DNA of 46,926 bases from Deltaproteobacteria bacterium (GTDB taxonomy: Bacteria > Desulfobacterota > WTBG01 > JAGOGO01): positions 1 through 46,926 of the forward strand of contig JAGOGO010000007.1 in the NCBI GenBank assembly GCA_017996625.1, given 5' to 3'. The position numbers were made by a program, and so were the translations under genes. This document shows, one piece after another, positions 25,949-42,652 of this stretch; position 1 is the first letter of the stretch, and every line of letters begins with the position of its first letter. Below the pieces are notes generated by a model that had not been told where the DNA came from, did not search any database, and worked only from the letters and a program-made list of their open reading frames with translations.

Positions 25949-26182
25949 ATGAGAACCAAACGGAAGGTTACCTTGACAATCGATGAGGATCTTTATGCCG
26001 CGATAGAGAAGGCGTCAACAGATGCTCGCCTTGCCAAGAGTCAACTGGCAGAGGAAGCTCTCAGGCTTTGGCTGCAAAAAGAGACAGAATCTCTTATGGC
26101 CAAAGGATACGAGGAAATGGCAGAAGAGGAACACGCCGCGGCTAATCTCGCTTTTGAGGCCCAGCGGGAGGTGCTGAAATGA
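25949..26182 (+). CDS. Ribbon-helix-helix antitoxin (MazE-type partner)
   Basis: A 77-residue protein beginning MRTKRKVTLTIDEDLYAAIE, a classic ribbon-helix-helix strand and first helix, followed by LAKSQLAEEALRLWLQK as the second helix. The C-terminal acidic and Ala-rich tail (about 50-77) is the part that normally wraps and blocks the toxin. Upstream in-frame starts at 25913 and 25928 would add up to 12 residues, but the predicted transcript start makes them unlikely. It overlaps the toxin gene by four bases (ATGA), the usual coupling in such modules. Confidence 0.85.
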   Translation: MRTKRKVTLTIDEDLYAAIEKASTDARLAKSQLAEEALRLWLQKETESLMAKGYEEMAEEEHAAANLAFEAQREVLK

Positions 26183-26520
26183 CCAAGTTTCCCAAGCGAG
26201 GCGAGGTGTGGCTGGTTAACTGGAATCCAGGCCGCGGAAGTGAGCAAGTTGGCAAACGTCCTGCCTTGATTATCCAGAACGACATTGGCAATGAGAAATC
26301 GTCCACGACAATTGTCGCGGCAATCTCGAGTACTGTCCGAATCTATCCGATGAACGTGGCCATCAAACCTCCCGAAGGTGGGCTTATTACTCCCTCGATT
26401 ATAAAGACAAGTCAAATTCTGACCGTTGCTAAGGAAAGATTGGAAAAACGCTTGGGCATGCTCAGTGAAGTCAGTATGAAAGCGGTTGATCGAGCAATCA
26501 AGTTGAGTTTGGCTTTGTGA
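26179..26520 (+). CDS. MazF/PemK-family mRNA interferase toxin
   Basis: A 113-residue endoribonuclease of the CcdB/PemK fold that cleaves mRNA at short sequence motifs. It has KRGEVWLVNWNPGRGSEQVG with the active-site Arg loop, then GKRPALIIQND, TTIVAAISS, and TPSIIKTSQILTVAKERLEK with the second catalytic region. All key parts appear intact. It is held in check by the antitoxin encoded just upstream. The cut site cannot be read from the sequence. The module lies beside a repeat-rich region and is bracketed by an inverted 12-base word, suggesting past mobility. Confidence 0.92.
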   Translation: MTKFPKRGEVWLVNWNPGRGSEQVGKRPALIIQNDIGNEKSSTTIVAAISSTVRIYPMNVAIKPPEGGLITPSIIKTSQILTVAKERLEKRLGMLSEVSMKAVDRAIKLSLAL

Positions 26521-36276: not shown

Positions 36277-38925
36277 TCAATTCACGTTATTGTCTCGCGC
36301 CACCACCGCTCTAATCGCTCCCCAATCCATTCCCCTGGGCATAACGAAGAGACACGCTCCTCCGCTCTTCAGCGCCCATAATTCGCCCAGCCGCCGCTTC
36401 TCCTTAGAGTCGTCGTTGCTCCAGCGGTCTGCTCCCTTGTACTCGACTACCAGGTAGCGGCCGTCTTTGAGCTTGCAGACAAAATCAGGGTAGAATTTGT
36501 CGGTAGAGGTTTGAAGCCAAAAAGAGAAATTCGGTTGGCGATCAAGATTGCGAACCCAGTATTCTGTCTCTTCCATGTGGTCGATGAACCGAGCGCAGAG
36601 AAATTCCTCGCCTTTGTCGGCGAAATCGCCTACCTTCGAATAGTAATGTCTTCTGAAGCTCTCCGAAGCTGCGCAAGGGAATCTCATGGGATACTGGTCG
36701 CGTGCGAACGAGAAGCACCGCTCCGGTGAGACTATTATCTTAGACCCATCATCCTCAAAGAGCAGCTTCTGATGGATTTGTTGACGTGCTTGCTGACGAT
36801 AGTTTTTGATCTTTTGTTCGGCTATTTTGCGCAGGTCGAACTTCCTGCGCAGGAGTTGACCCAGCGTCATGCCGCGATTGTCGAGCAGGTCACCCACCAT
36901 TGCGGTGAGGAAAATCTCTTTTTGCTCGGATGCAATTTCGATGAAACGAAGATTTGTATCCAGCCATGAAATGAGCGCAGCCTCGGTCCAATTGCCTATT
37001 TCCTCGATAAGCTGCAGCTGGCGATTGAGATCGTGAATGAACCTGCTTCTGATTTTTCCGTCAGCCGCGATATCGATTTCACCAAATTCCCCTTCTTCCC
37101 TGGACAAGAGAGCAAATTCTTCCGGTGTCAACCGGGGATCAAAGGCGGTCAAATCCCAGCCTTCTCCGAGGAGATGATCCTCTTCGAACAGCTCCAGTTG
37201 ATTGCCTCGCTTGATGCACAGCAGGGGAATATAAAACATTTTTCCCCGCTCCGCAGGGCTCTTGTAGAGCTCAGTCAGGTCATCCCGATACTGGCGTATT
37301 GCCGTGATCCAGGTGGAACGAGCAGAATCAGAAATAAAGCACCGGCTGATTTCCTCTTGCTCTTCAGGTTGCAGATATGCTTTTACCGTGACCGTTTTGT
37401 TGGCTTCATCGATGATGATCTTTTCCTTGATACCTGGTGAGAGTCTGTATGGATCAGGCACTTCCTGTAAGGGAATGGTCGTGTGCAGCGTCTGCTCCCT
37501 TGTGAAGTGGAGCAGTAATTGGCTGGGTGCAACCGGGGTAATAAAATCCCGCGCCTCTTGTTTATTAAAGCCATTTTCAACTAAAGCATCTTCGAGACTC
37601 TGCGCAGCCAGCACAAAGTTCGGAGATGCAACAAAAGCATAAGCACGGCCCAGATCCTCAACAGCATACTTGCGGCAATACGGAAGTCGCAAGACCCTGC
37701 CGAGGATTTGCTCCACTGCTCCGCTTGAGCGCTGCTCAGCAAGAGAACACAAGACATACGCGAAAGGACAGTCCCATCCTTCACGAAGAGCCTGGACGGT
37801 GATGATGTAGCGGATTTCACAGGTCTTGAATGCCAGATCAATTCCTTCCAGACCTCTGTCCTCACCAGTAGCGCGGGCGATCTGATTCTCGGGAATGTGA
37901 TGGTCTTCAAGGAGGCTTTTCTCAATGACTTCTACCGTCAATGTTTCCCTGTCCTTACGGCGCGGCTGAGCCTGGAGGAGCATGATCGGGCGAATATAGT
38001 CGCCGCCTCTTCGATGGGCGAGCAATGCCTTGCTCTCCAAGTCGTTGCGTCGGGCAATGGCGTCGCCAAGCAGAGCCTGCCAGTCGGTTCGCGTCTCCAG
38101 CAGAATTGGCAACTTGATCATATCCTCTGCTTTCAATTCGGCTGCGGAGGTACTGTGAAGGACATTGCTCGGGTTTCTGCTGCTATCGGGAGTAGCGGTG
38201 AATTCGATAATGGCTGACGGACGGAAGCGGGCGAGGGTATCGAAGGAAAGCTCGGTGCGGGCATTGTGTGCCTCGTCCACGATTACCAAAGGACGATGAA
38301 TTCGCATCACGTTTTCCAGTGAGCATGGTACAACGCCGTTTTCATCTCGATACAGTATTTCGCGAATTTCTTGCGGTATATTCGTGAAATGGTGCTGAAG
38401 CGCCCCGGCGGTGTCATACACTTTTCGGCCCTCTTTATCTTCAACCCGGAACGCCTGCAAGGTGGCGACGATGATAACAGTAGCGCCGAGCATAGTGCCG
38501 TGATGTAAACTGAGAGCCTCGGTTATGTCCATTACCTCCACTGTGCCCACCGTGCTCTCTAAGGCCTGCCGGTAAAAGTGATCACGATCACGAAGCGCCT
38601 TCAGCGTCTGCTCTCGAATTGCATTAGAAGGCACCAGCCAGAGCACCAGAGATTGGTCCTGCTTCAGGTACTCTTTGTTGGCAACTGCTACTGCATGACA
38701 TGCAAGCAGGGTTTTCCCGCCGCCGGTGGGAAGCCGCAGACACACATAGGGAATATCTGCCAAGGCGGATGGTTCTTTGATGGGTCGGTAGGAAAGGCCT
38801 TGTCCCCCAAGCTCCTCAGAGACTTTGTAGAAGGCAAGCGATGCATCCTTCAGCTCATCACATGCGGACAGATACCGCTGCAGCGATTCCAGCGCTTTTT
38901 CCTGGTAGGTTTTCAACTGGAGCAT
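36277..38925 (-). CDS. Type III restriction endonuclease subunit Res
   Basis: The ATP-dependent restriction subunit of a Type III system. The 882-residue protein has a superfamily 2 helicase core: Walker A LPTGGGKTLLA (65-75), DEAH in IVDEAHNART (about 217), TATPDSS, and the C-terminal helicase motif EQILGRVLRLPYC. The far C-terminus has a PD-(D/E)xK nuclease site, FYPDFV (Asp814) and VVEYKG (Glu828, Lys830). It complexes with Mod and cuts DNA after meeting head-to-head sites. Its ATG shares one base with the mod stop (TGATG). No frameshift is seen. Confidence 0.95.
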   Translation of the reverse strand: MLQLKTYQEKALESLQRYLSACDELKDASLAFYKVSEELGGQGLSYRPIKEPSALADIPYVCLRLPTGGGKTLLACHAVAVANKEYLKQDQSLVLWLVPSNAIREQTLKALRDRDHFYRQALESTVGTVEVMDITEALSLHHGTMLGATVIIVATLQAFRVEDKEGRKVYDTAGALQHHFTNIPQEIREILYRDENGVVPCSLENVMRIHRPLVIVDEAHNARTELSFDTLARFRPSAIIEFTATPDSSRNPSNVLHSTSAAELKAEDMIKLPILLETRTDWQALLGDAIARRNDLESKALLAHRRGGDYIRPIMLLQAQPRRKDRETLTVEVIEKSLLEDHHIPENQIARATGEDRGLEGIDLAFKTCEIRYIITVQALREGWDCPFAYVLCSLAEQRSSGAVEQILGRVLRLPYCRKYAVEDLGRAYAFVASPNFVLAAQSLEDALVENGFNKQEARDFITPVAPSQLLLHFTREQTLHTTIPLQEVPDPYRLSPGIKEKIIIDEANKTVTVKAYLQPEEQEEISRCFISDSARSTWITAIRQYRDDLTELYKSPAERGKMFYIPLLCIKRGNQLELFEEDHLLGEGWDLTAFDPRLTPEEFALLSREEGEFGEIDIAADGKIRSRFIHDLNRQLQLIEEIGNWTEAALISWLDTNLRFIEIASEQKEIFLTAMVGDLLDNRGMTLGQLLRRKFDLRKIAEQKIKNYRQQARQQIHQKLLFEDDGSKIIVSPERCFSFARDQYPMRFPCAASESFRRHYYSKVGDFADKGEEFLCARFIDHMEETEYWVRNLDRQPNFSFWLQTSTDKFYPDFVCKLKDGRYLVVEYKGADRWSNDDSKEKRRLGELWALKSGGACLFVMPRGMDWGAIRAVVARDNNVN

Positions 38926-40538
38926 CAGCGCACTCGTATCTCATAGGGGATTTGTCGAAAAATGATATTCTCCTTCTTCAACCGTTCGGGGCTGAGCCGG
39001 CAGGCAGTTCCATAAATCACCTTCCGGCCGTCATGCTGCGGCAGATCAGCCAAGACTGCTTGCGTCAGCACATTGCCGCCTTGGGGGTGTTTGTCTTTAA
39101 GAATGCCATTATAAAGCAGGTAGACTGCAGTATCTCTGAGGATACCGATCAAAGGGCTGGTTCCCGGCGATTCCTGTGTAATCGGTTGTCCGGTCTCAGT
39201 GAAGAATACATGCCGGCTAAGATCGGCAAAGCTCACACCACTATTGATTCTTCCGTGTTCATCGAAGCACGGTGCACCCAAGGTGCAATAGCGGAAGCCG
39301 CTGCCGAGGCCCTCGACCAATGTTCCATCAGACTTTGTGTAGCCGTTGCACACCCGCCGCAAGCGTTCCGCAGTTACGGTTTTGCAGATGGCAGCGTCCA
39401 TCTCCACAAGAATGAATCGCCGGTTCCCGCCGTCTTCTTTGTTCATTTGCATGACTGCATGGCCCGTAGTGCCGGAGCCGGAGAATGAATCGAGAATGAG
39501 AGAGTCTTTACCAGATGCTATTTCCAGTATGCGCTTGATAAGGCGAGTCGGTTTGGGTGTGATAAAGACTGACTGAGAATCATCGAAGTCGCATATGGCT
39601 ACCAGCTCTTTCTTTGCTTCCTGCGTATGTCCAACTTCTTGGTAGGTCCAAAGTGTTTGAGGCACAACCCCTTGCTTGACCTCTGACAAGAATCTTTTGA
39701 CTGCTGGAATGTTACTCCCGTTTTCACCCCACCAAATACGATTATCAGCATCTAGCTCCTTGAACTTCTCCTCTGAATAAATCCAATATCGCCCCCTTGG
39801 CGGACCGGATATTGTTCGTCCGGCTGGGGTCTGAAGTGAATAAGTTCCTTTGCTATAAAAATTCCTAGCAGACATCCCATCCATTCGCCATGGTCCTCTA
39901 GGATCATTGTCGAGATTCTTGTAAGCCTTGTCTTGCTTCTCACTTCGAGCTACCAAATTGGGTTTCCATCGAGTGGCATTTCTCGCATAAACAACAATGA
40001 AGTCATGGTCCTCAGAAAAGTGCCGTGCCGAGTTTTTTGGTGAGTACACCTTCTGCCAAATAACGGTTGTGATAAAGTTTTTCTCCCCAAAGATTTCGTC
40101 CATCACCGCCCGCAGATTATGCTTCTCATTATCGTCAATGCTGATGAATATCGCTCCATCTTCCCGCAGCATCTGCCGCAGCAAGGATAAGCGTGGGTAC
40201 ATCATGCAAAGCCAGCGATCATGACGGTCGAGGGTCTCACCCTCTCCGCCAACAACCTTTCCCAACCACTTTCGTATCTCCGGGCTGTTTACGTTATCGT
40301 TGTAAACCCAATTTTCGTTACCCGTGTTGTACGGCGGATCGATGTAGATGCACTTCACCTGCCCGGCATAGTAAGGGAGAAGAGCCTTGAGTGCGGTGAG
40401 ATTGTCGCCCTCGACCAGCAAGTTGCCAGCTCCTGTCTCGCCAACAGAAAAGTCAGCTTCCTCTCTCAAGAGGTGAAACGACACCTCATGATGATGATTG
40501 ATAACAGCCTTCTTTCCGATCCAATCTAATGTAGGCAC
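38925..40538 (-). CDS. Type III DNA methyltransferase subunit Mod (adenine-N6)
   Basis: The sequence-recognising methyltransferase of the Type III system. The 537-residue protein shows catalytic motif IV as DPPYNTGNE (Asp67) ahead of the AdoMet motif FSGSGTTGHAV (about 349), the beta-class order expected of Mod. The target-recognition region lies between (about 150-300). LLVEGDNLTALKALLPYY near the start is typical. The start is GTG with AGGA eight bases upstream. It is the first gene of the mod-res operon and divergent from the HEPN cassette. I saw no simple-sequence tract suggesting phase variation. The recognition site cannot be predicted. Confidence 0.95.
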   Translation of the reverse strand: MPTLDWIGKKAVINHHHEVSFHLLREEADFSVGETGAGNLLVEGDNLTALKALLPYYAGQVKCIYIDPPYNTGNENWVYNDNVNSPEIRKWLGKVVGGEGETLDRHDRWLCMMYPRLSLLRQMLREDGAIFISIDDNEKHNLRAVMDEIFGEKNFITTVIWQKVYSPKNSARHFSEDHDFIVVYARNATRWKPNLVARSEKQDKAYKNLDNDPRGPWRMDGMSARNFYSKGTYSLQTPAGRTISGPPRGRYWIYSEEKFKELDADNRIWWGENGSNIPAVKRFLSEVKQGVVPQTLWTYQEVGHTQEAKKELVAICDFDDSQSVFITPKPTRLIKRILEIASGKDSLILDSFSGSGTTGHAVMQMNKEDGGNRRFILVEMDAAICKTVTAERLRRVCNGYTKSDGTLVEGLGSGFRYCTLGAPCFDEHGRINSGVSFADLSRHVFFTETGQPITQESPGTSPLIGILRDTAVYLLYNGILKDKHPQGGNVLTQAVLADLPQHDGRKVIYGTACRLSPERLKKENIIFRQIPYEIRVR

Positions 40539-40725: not shown

Positions 40726-40755
40726 TTGACAGAAATGCAAACAATTTCATATTAT
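40726..40755 (+). promoter_or_regulatory. Sigma-70-type promoter of the three-gene HEPN cassette
   Basis: TTGACA (40726-40731) and TATTAT (40750-40755), 18-base spacer. Start near 40762, about 30 bases before the first ATG. It shows that the cassette has its own expression, facing away from mod-res. Confidence 0.65.
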
Positions 40756-40792: not shown

Positions 40793-41443
40793 ATGAACCT
40801 AACTTTATCCAATTTCTCTATAGTTGTCCTCGCACAAGCTCATAATCCAACAGTATTGAATCCCGACTTCCTAAAGAACAATCATATCGTTAACGAGGAA
40901 TGGACACCAAAGATCGTCATTTGCACACCTCCAGTGGCCCAGGTGGTCTATGAGGAAGGAATATCCATTATTGCAGAGTTTGAAAGGCTTCAGTTCATAG
41001 ACACTGTATTGGAGAGAATACCTGAAAACTCTCCCGTACCGAATATTGCTACCAAATACATCCAAACGCTTCCACACGTAAGATATATAGCCGCTGGCAT
41101 TAATTTTGACGGCCACTGCCTTTTTTCGGATAGCAAGTCGGCAAGTGCATTTATTTCAGAGAAGTTTATCAAGGCTGGACCTTGGTTGACCACAGACCAG
41201 AATGCAGATATTAGCATCACATTTGCTTATCCCTATAATAACAAGAAAAAAAGTATATCCTTGAGACCTGGCGAGATAAGCCAATCAAATGGTGAGCGGT
41301 TGCCCGGGATTCTCGTAAATGCCAACTACCATTTTGGCATTGCGGAAAGCGAGTTGAACCTGCTCGAATCTTTTGTTGCGAGCTGGCATGATCCCTATAG
41401 GGATTTTGAGCACTTCACTATGGAAGTGTTCGGTGAGGAGTAA
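40793..41443 (+). CDS. Unknown protein, first gene of the HEPN cassette
   Basis: A 216-residue soluble protein of no family I can name. Its start MNLTLSNFSIVVLAQAHNPT, then VLNPDFLKNN, TPPVAQVVYEEGISIIAEFE and a Gly-rich ITFAYPYNN stretch suggest a mixed alpha/beta fold. The C-terminal region has NANYHFGIAESELNLLESF. A GGGAAA ribosome site and the promoter at 40726 support this ATG. The gene ends two bases before the ATG of the next. The region looks more AT-rich than its surroundings (many AAA, ATA and TTT codons), suggesting transfer. It could be a sensor or scaffold for the HEPN protein; this is inference only. Confidence 0.75.
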   Translation: MNLTLSNFSIVVLAQAHNPTVLNPDFLKNNHIVNEEWTPKIVICTPPVAQVVYEEGISIIAEFERLQFIDTVLERIPENSPVPNIATKYIQTLPHVRYIAAGINFDGHCLFSDSKSASAFISEKFIKAGPWLTTDQNADISITFAYPYNNKKKSISLRPGEISQSNGERLPGILVNANYHFGIAESELNLLESFVASWHDPYRDFEHFTMEVFGEE

Positions 41444-41444
41444 T

Positions 41445-42011
41445 ATGCAGACCTTACCAAAAGATATAAGTGGCTATGTATTAGGGGCGGTATACGATGC
41501 TTGGCGTGATATAAGCACTAACGAAGATATGAGCGAGAATACTCCTCAGGGATTAACACTCCATTCCGTCCATATAATAGCTTCGCCAACTACAGCCTAT
41601 GCCAATCAAGGTCGTCTTGAAGCGATTGCAGGTCAATGGGAAATCACCGCAGATGGTGTCCTCACCAAACCCAAGTATAATAACCGATCGACGACGCCCA
41701 AAAAAGCCTTCCATTCGCCACAACTGAACAAAGACGTTGTTGAATATGCCATCCAGAACAGTATCCCCATAGCGGACATTGGTATGTATTATGATCTTCT
41801 CTATAGAAATCTGAGCGGGACGCAAGAGGTAGAGGTGTCCCTTGTTTCCGACTATGAAATAGAGAACTACTGCCTGATTGGATTTGCAGTTAAAGCGAAG
41901 AGCTCAATTGAAGATTTGCTCGAAAACGAAGAGAAGTTTAAGAAGGTAGCCCGCAAGCTGGTTTCAAGAGAATCAAGAGCCCACTTTGTTCTCACCCTTG
42001 AAGTCGTCTGA
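41445..42011 (+). CDS. Unknown protein, second gene of the HEPN cassette
   Basis: A 188-residue soluble protein, family not recognised. It begins MQTLPKDISGYVLGAVYDAW with GGTGAGGAG as ribosome site inside the end of the previous gene. Visible segments are HSVHIIASPTTAYANQGRLE, a basic loop (KPKYNNRSTTPKKAFHS, about 75-91) that could touch nucleic acid, VEVSLVSDYEIENYCLIGFA, and a charged helix DLLENEEKFKKVARKLVSRE near the end. The one-base gap from the previous gene and the one-base overlap with the next (TGATG) make this a translationally coupled unit. Role unknown. Confidence 0.75.
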   Translation: MQTLPKDISGYVLGAVYDAWRDISTNEDMSENTPQGLTLHSVHIIASPTTAYANQGRLEAIAGQWEITADGVLTKPKYNNRSTTPKKAFHSPQLNKDVVEYAIQNSIPIADIGMYYDLLYRNLSGTQEVEVSLVSDYEIENYCLIGFAVKAKSSIEDLLENEEKFKKVARKLVSRESRAHFVLTLEVV

Positions 42012-42421
42012 TGGAAGCAAAAGAATTCTTAGACGTTGCACAAAGACTATGTGCGTCTCATCACGAGGCTGATCGACGTACCTCTGTGAGCAGAGCATAT
42101 TATGCCGTCTTCAATCATATCAAGCCAGTCCTCGAGTCATTTGGTGTAACCTTTTCTTCTGAAGCACACGACCATACAAAAATCTATAAGTATCTTAATA
42201 ACGCTGGCCTTGAAGACGCGGAAAGTGTTGCTCACGATTTAACTAGTCTTAGAAAAATTAGAGGTAGAGCAGACTACGACATGAAGTATTCGGGCTTTGA
42301 GCGAAACAATTGTTTGCTCTGGTACCAGAAGGCTAAGCGTTGCATTAATGATTTTGATCGAGTAGATAAAAAAGCTCTCAGAAAAAACATCGGTGAATAC
42401 CGATCCAAAATAAATGAATAA
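42011..42421 (+). CDS. HEPN-domain protein, third gene of the cassette
   Basis: A 136-residue helical protein with the HEPN pattern: EFLDVAQRLCASHHEADRRT, then SVSRAYYAVFNHIKPVL (25-41), and LRKIRGRADYDM (80-91). HEPN domains are often RNases or RNA-binding partners in toxin-antitoxin, abortive infection and CRISPR-linked systems. The catalytic Rx4-6H motif of RNase members is not evident (the segment reads RGRADYD without His), so it may be a binding or inactive form. It belongs to the SRAYYA/ADY subgroup that is frequent near mobile and defence genes. Stop and start overlap with the previous gene by one base. Confidence 0.85.
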   Translation: MEAKEFLDVAQRLCASHHEADRRTSVSRAYYAVFNHIKPVLESFGVTFSSEAHDHTKIYKYLNNAGLEDAESVAHDLTSLRKIRGRADYDMKYSGFERNNCLLWYQKAKRCINDFDRVDKKALRKNIGEYRSKINE

Positions 42422-42501
42422 ATATCAGCAGCGGCTGTGTAACAAGTTGCCTTTCAACGGAAAGCGGGCCCTTGTGTTTCTTGTATCGCTGAAATACCTA
42501 G

Positions 42502-42521
42502 ATTCCCGCCTTCGCGGGAAT
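42502..42521. repeat. ATTCCCGC hairpin repeat
   Basis: ATTCCCGC-cttc-GCGGGAAT, a perfect 8-bp stem, followed by GACGGT. It is the inverted counterpart of the tandem copies at 36177-36226 and has the ATTCCC-N8-GGGAAT layout of the dRS3-type repeats known from Neisseria. The rest of 42422-42652 shows no gene. Confidence 0.65.
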
Positions 42522-42652
42522 GACGGTAGCCTCGTTGTTGCCGAATTTTTGCTTCTTCAGCAATGACTGATCATCCTTGTTCCTCGGTCTTTTTTCATAT
42601 CCATTAGCACAGTCTCGCTTATAGAACAGACTACTCAGCACTGTGAGGCAGT

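Follow-up and report, generated by a model that had tools for sequence, protein, structure and literature searches.

A HEPN-containing three-gene cassette that may work like a TAC toxin-antitoxin module, with a hub other than SecB

Background

The TAC systems are toxin-antitoxin (TA) systems under the control of a chaperone, and include HigBA1-SecB(TA) of M. tuberculosis (PMC5105189, PMC6377645) and CmdTAC of E. coli, which has a phage trigger (PMC11618068). The ChAD extensions of TAC antitoxins vary, are missing from antitoxins that work without a chaperone, and can be moved from one toxin family to another (PMC5105189). In HEPN-MNT (HepT-MntA) systems, a HEPN toxin gene has a small partner gene directly adjacent to it. 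The NetFlax survey was restricted to conserved two-gene systems, and both HEPN-MNT and HicBA escaped it (PMC10440598).

The cassette described here, from a Deltaproteobacteria bacterium, resembles TAC in having three genes, in one chaperone or hub family that would serve several unrelated TA families, and in a candidate antitoxin whose extension is poorly conserved and, with one exception of 190 aa, missing from chaperone-free relatives. It differs from TAC in that the extension is N-terminal and about 80-120 residues long, as compared to the short C-terminal ChAD, in that the hub gene is first and the toxin gene last, and in the candidate toxins, which include HEPN, PIN, HNH, MazF and unnamed families. 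By Pfam and fold searches the hub is not a SecB protein, and we therefore class the cassette as working like TAC and not as TAC. With HEPN-MNT it shares the HEPN gene and its small neighbor, but the HEPN protein is of the SRAYYA/ADY type without an Rx4-6H motif and a hub gene is additionally present; an assignment to HEPN-MNT was rejected, as gene 2 has no nucleotidyltransferase match. As in NetFlax, one constant component is combined with many toxins; the constant part is here a third protein, whereas in the NetFlax networks it is the antitoxin domain.

We suggest, with a probability of roughly 0.6, that the cassette is a tripartite TA module working like TAC, in which the hub is not SecB and the antitoxin is extended at its N-terminus.

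Gene organization of the cassette

The window, i.e. the whole stretch of DNA analyzed (46,926 nt), is one entire contig (JAGOGO010000007.1) of a draft genome in 261 contigs (GCA_017996625.1), in which gene 2 is found in one copy. An earlier note, made from the sequence alone, described three coupled genes under their own promoter, more AT-rich than their neighbors, with two genes of no known family followed by a HEPN gene without an Rx4-6H motif. This description agrees with our results. The open reading frames confirm a 1-nt gap between genes 1 and 2 and a 1-nt overlap between genes 2 and 3, which share an A between stop and start codon (Table 1). The GC content of the cassette is 0.41-0.46, compared to about 0.50-0.55 in both flanks. 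A near-consensus promoter candidate ends about 37 nt 5' of the start codon of gene 1 (g1), in a region where promoter-like sites occur at chance level (4 found, 4.1 expected). Searches of Pfam, NCBIfam, PADLOC and PHROGs with g1 and gene 2 gave no credible match. The weak library matches InhA, MPN555, Cas8a, GrpE and SpoIIID are far below curated cut-offs or unsupported, and were discarded as noise.

Directly 3' of gene 3, at 42495-42528, the sequence (ATTCCCGC...GCGGGAAT) forms an inverted repeat, which may act as a terminator or represent a dispersed palindromic element. The window also encodes a PemK/MazF toxin (26179-26520, plus strand; PF02452, E 3e-31), located apart from the cassette.

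Table 1. Position of the cassette genes and neighboring features in the window
Feature	Position	Strand	Length (aa)	Basis and remarks
Type III restriction subunit (Res)	36277..38925	-		PADLOC REase_III, E 1e-150; neighbor, outside cassette
Type III DNA methyltransferase (Mod)	38925..40538	-		PADLOC MTase_III, E 3e-220; neighbor, divergent from g1
Candidate sigma-70-like promoter, TTGACA-N18-TATTAT	40726..40755	+		Consensus matches only (11/12)
Gene 1 (g1), candidate hub, new family	40793..41443	+	216	Family alignment, AlphaFold model; stop TAA 41441-41443
Gene 2	41445..42011	+	188	ATG 41445; stop TGA 42009-42011
Extension at the gene 2 N-terminus (residues 1-90), predicted to be disordered	41445..41714	+		AlphaFold pLDDT
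C-terminal domain of gene 2 (residues 91-188), folded, candidate HEPN-specific antitoxin	41715..42008	+		Alignment, AlphaFold
Gene 3, HEPN (SRAYYA/ADY type), candidate toxin	42011..42421	+	136	PF05168, E 1e-7; ATG 42011

The g1 family

The g1 family is characterized by the motif HNP[TS]-x-LNPDFL in its alignment. AlphaFold gave a confident model of g1 (pLDDT 91.9, pTM 0.87) with the predicted element order beta-alpha-beta4-alpha / beta-alpha-beta3-alpha-alpha. The best match in PDB is the AdoMetDC prozyme fold (E 3e-5, TM 0.39), and folds of the viral early-transcription-factor type were also matched (E about 1e-5, TM about 0.3); both are too weak for naming. The best fold match overall is BFVD entry A0A515MGR4 (E 6e-11, TM 0.66), a viral protein that is 202 aa long and carries no name. 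There is no SecB among the 50 best fold matches in PDB, and a search of 22 g1 members against Pfam and NCBIfam gave no match to SecB.

One alternative is that the hub is an operon regulator, binding both operator DNA and the N-terminus of gene 2, which would make the cassette a tripartite TA operon with a separate repressor. Such operons are known, examples being omega-epsilon-zeta and paaR-paaA-parE. The hub gene is in first position, gene 2 has no recognizable DNA-binding domain, so that another member may regulate, and the elements predicted for g1 follow an order similar to that of the TBP-type repeat, which is beta-alpha-beta4-alpha; the fold matches in the viral library include early-transcription-factor proteins. 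However, the 50 best PDB matches hold neither TBP nor any other well-matching DNA-binding protein, and a scan of the region upstream of g1 for inverted or direct repeats, as expected of an operator, found none. The hubs are mostly acidic (g1 has a pI of about 5, and g1 members range from 4.7 to 7.6), which disfavors DNA binding without excluding it. Solitary g1 homologues in cyanobacteria also speak against a regulator, and we regard this role as quite unlikely.

We searched for g1 in a phylum sample, in plasmids and in the contigs of GTDB species. The family is present in 5 of 395 genomes of the phylum sample, and the GTDB contigs gave 23 loci. Relatives come from about nine bacterial phyla and include Planctomycetota, Nitrospirota, Nitrospinota, Myxococcota-type Deltaproteobacteria, Omnitrophota, Hydrogenedentes, Ignavibacteriota, Pseudomonadota and Cyanobacteriota. 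A search of phage records found no g1. Viral contigs gave no relative of gene 3, and none of g1 in a scan with a single pattern, which does not imply its absence.

A three-gene cassette is lacking around g1 in L021, L034, L036 and most of the cyanobacterial plasmid copies, and the loci L019 and L039 are truncated by contig ends. In L021 (6766-12696) g1 is followed by a gene encoding a Uma2 endonuclease and then by a type I restriction-modification operon, in which one embedded gene may, judged by eye, encode a HEPN-like protein. In the cyanobacterial plasmids L008, L010 and L013-L016 the g1 homologues are found near, and some directly before, genes for giant CARDB/Ig-domain or other proteins. 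No TA genes are located beside them, and it is conceivable that they act as chaperones for the giant proteins. Several of these homologues are solitary, indicating that the g1 family is not exclusively a part of TA modules.

The vicinity of giant CARDB/Ig-domain proteins could also be taken to suggest that the cassette is an ordinary unit of metabolism or of the envelope, with no tie to toxins or defense. The patchy distribution of g1 in the phylum sample, the AT-rich insertion, the toxin families encoded at third position and the lack of a constant pathway partner across the cassettes all disfavor this, and we consider it highly improbable.

Exchange of the third gene

In 21 independent loci, the window included, g1 is the first gene of a coupled three-gene cassette when read downstream. 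The third genes fall into several classes, some of them assigned by eye. HEPN is encoded in seven of the cassettes (the window, L017, L018, L020, L022, L026 and L028), PIN in two (L025, Pfam E 5e-8, above the cut-off; L029, E 4e-4, slightly under it) and HNH in two (L035 by Pfam; L037 by eye, with a broken reading frame). Three cassettes have a third gene of a 'SQSCDL' type of approximately 210 aa (L023, L024 and L027), six have 'YRA/HHIARY' types (L009, L031, L033, L038, L062 and L063) and one, L030, has another type.

Six further genomes, belonging to Planctomycetota, Nitrospirota, Hydrogenedentes and Myxococcota, have the same succession of tightly coupled genes: g1, a gene 2 whose C-terminal domain is related, and HEPN. 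This repetition places the trio beyond chance. Its conservation in distant genomes, for which the earlier note had proposed a check, supports the reading of that note. The composition of the trio is not fixed, as g1 is mostly paired with partners other than HEPN. Homologues occurring mainly apart from HEPN genes, which the earlier note had held to count against its reading, are thus seen for gene 1 and not for gene 2. In the g1 tree, the HEPN label takes 3 changes, at least 2 of which are required by well-supported branches; the window is placed in a supported HEPN clade (95/95) together with L017, L018, L020 and L022. Judged from sequence, g1 looks like a constant hub heading antitoxin-toxin pairs, with the toxin exchanged between genomes.

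Further hub families

TIGR04255 was chosen for comparison since its sequence pattern appeared to resemble that of g1. It is an uncharacterized, sporadically distributed family of NCBIfam, and a literature search for TIGR04255 found no mention of it. We found it in 23 of 297 genomes of the phylum sample, nearly always as the first gene of a three-gene cassette. The third genes of these cassettes encode PemK (E 2e-13), PIN (E 9e-12) and DUF7689 (E 1e-40) according to Pfam, as well as HicA-like (E 3e-4) and HEPN (E 4e-3) proteins, both below the Pfam cut-off. Profiles of the TIGR04255-linked genes match their g1-linked counterparts, with E-values from 4e-25 to 2e-3 for gene 2 and from 2e-23 to 2e-3 for the third gene (Z 1000).

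Both hub families thus occupy the first position and precede members of the same gene 2 and gene 3 families, one of the pairings being HEPN next to the 'DPE' domain described below. Their own similarity is weak: the TIGR04255.1 model gave no match to g1 members at the NCBIfam cut-off, nor any in genome G000, and hhalign gave a local E of 0.011 in one comparison, with 139 colinear columns and a probability of 3.8%.

In L102 and L104 (reverse strand) the same gene-2/HEPN pair is preceded by a third hub family. These hubs are 236 and 234 aa long, have the stretch LPxDAPxEIPRI in common and show no detectable similarity to g1 or TIGR04255.

The HEPN protein and its partner

Instead of Rx4-6H, the motif of the HepT-type HEPN ribonucleases, gene 3 has the C-terminal motif R84-x3-D88-Y89. 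Residues R23, R28, Y30, Y31, H55, R84, D88 and Y89 are invariant in 17 relatives from cassettes or pairs. The position of the HEPN gene is occupied by PIN, MazF/PemK, HicA-like and HNH genes in sister cassettes, which makes the HEPN protein the likely toxin, with gene 2 as its likely antitoxin. Over the whole class of cassettes a broad feature of type II TA systems is seen, a toxin from a known family encoded next to a small protein, with PIN and PemK (both above the Pfam cut-off), HNH and HEPN in third position. The earlier note suggested, from the missing Rx4-6H motif, that the toxin may be a member other than HEPN; the sister cassettes point to HEPN as the most likely toxin, and for gene 1 the role of a shared hub is a better reading than that of a toxin.

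Gene 2 is predicted to be built from two parts. In the AlphaFold model, residues 1-90 have a pLDDT of about 28-43 per block and are predicted to be disordered, whereas residues 91-188 (pLDDT about 74-83) form an alpha-alpha-beta-beta-alpha-beta domain. The C-terminal domain carries a D-x-E motif ('DPE'), with an invariant D and a near-invariant E, and is common to HEPN-linked gene 2 under both g1 and TIGR04255 hubs. A fold search with this domain gave no solved structure in PDB at E<1e-3, and searches with gene 2 as a single sequence gave almost no matches.

An exchange boundary within gene 2 is visible under the TIGR04255 hub, though not under g1. The hubs of L072, which has a third gene of QDCD type, and L074, which has PemK, are 84% identical, and residues 1-82 of gene 2 are 57% identical; past residue 82, gene 2 and the whole of gene 3 are unrelated. 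The DNA similarity between the two loci starts about 90 bases before the hub and ends within gene 2. L112 repeats the version of L072, and L113 and L114 repeat that of L074. In these TIGR04255 cassettes the N-terminus of gene 2 goes with the hub, and its C-terminal part is exchanged together with the toxin. The joint inheritance of hub and N-terminus lends indirect support to a hub that would bind the extension and be needed for neutralization. Gene 2 is accordingly modeled as a chimera of a disordered N-terminus and a folded, toxin-matched C-terminal domain, with residues 1-90 as a candidate hub-binding segment.

Additional gene-2/HEPN pairs were located with a profile of the C-terminal domain. 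Gene 2 is 170-279 aa long in pairs with a hub (n=13), and 102, 112, 119, 157 and up to 190 aa in pairs for which the profiles of g1, TIGR04255 and the third family recognized no hub, L064 included (n=5). The difference (Mann-Whitney, two-sided p 0.014) comes from few and related sequences, some with uncertain starts. The N-terminal extension is mostly absent where no hub is recognized, the exception being L107/L108, where the length of gene 2 may reach 190 aa. In L103 the match to the 'DPE' domain lies inside one open reading frame of about 580 aa, by eye ADP-ribosylglycohydrolase-like, with a HEPN gene following it.

Genomic neighborhood

Several cassettes adjoin restriction-modification or other defense genes, a tally made without a matched background. 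The cassette in the window adjoins a divergent type III restriction-modification system (Table 1). Type I restriction-modification genes are located beside the g1 cassettes in L009 and L038. The g1 cassette in L030 lies between DUF499 and DUF1156-methylase genes, a DUF499/DUF1156-methylase/PLD system by PADLOC, and the TIGR04255-PemK cassettes of L113 and L114 adjoin DUF1156-methylase genes (by eye). A DruE-like helicase is encoded next to the cassette in L018, and a type IIG/DrmMI-like methylase next to that in L023.

These neighbors would also fit an abortive-infection complex that is not a TA system, in which the hub senses phage and gene 2 is an adaptor that switches on an otherwise inactive gene 3 effector; a HEPN protein without Rx4-6H may indeed require activation. 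In such a complex, however, the effector position would not be expected to hold MazF/PemK, PIN and HicA-like proteins, which are free toxins held by antitoxins, and the hub-less gene-2/HEPN pairs fit antitoxin and toxin better than an adaptor without sensor. We find this explanation unlikely. The proposal of the earlier note of an undescribed defense or TA unit is partly supported by the distant conservation, the restriction-modification neighbors and a literature search in which no published description of the module was found, but not in the sense of one fixed unit.

Proposed mechanism and implications

For the TAC-like reading we propose the following. The HEPN protein would act as a toxin, probably targeting RNA, and be held by the C-terminal domain of gene 2. 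The disordered N-terminal part of gene 2, approximately 90 residues, would bind gene 1, which, like the SecB-like chaperone of TAC, would keep the antitoxin folded or shielded from proteolysis. If something such as a phage protein diverts the hub, as is the case in CmdTAC, loss of the antitoxin would set the HEPN protein free. This chaperone-like role in holding the antitoxin is what we infer from sequence comparison, as we do the toxicity, the binding of hub to the gene 2 N-terminus, the phage trigger and the RNA target.

A more general reading, to which we give even odds, is that of a class of three-component TA systems with one shared pool of antitoxin-toxin pairs, served by hubs of no fewer than three mutually dissimilar families (those of g1, TIGR04255 and L102/L104). 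New toxins would be gained by recombination within the antitoxin gene, so that the N-terminus of the chimeric antitoxin follows the hub and the C-terminus the toxin, and the hub would be a non-SecB chaperone that may sense infection.

The module is apparently widespread and undescribed. As the pairs stand behind a hub and not in a two-gene operon, searches for two-gene systems such as NetFlax could miss them. The model predicts that neutralization of the toxin requires the hub, and that a swapped N-terminus would carry hub dependence along. If true, it would assign a class of function to TIGR04255 and to the unnamed g1 family, extend the few TA systems under chaperone control by one whose hub is not SecB, and account for the capture of unrelated toxins under a single control protein.
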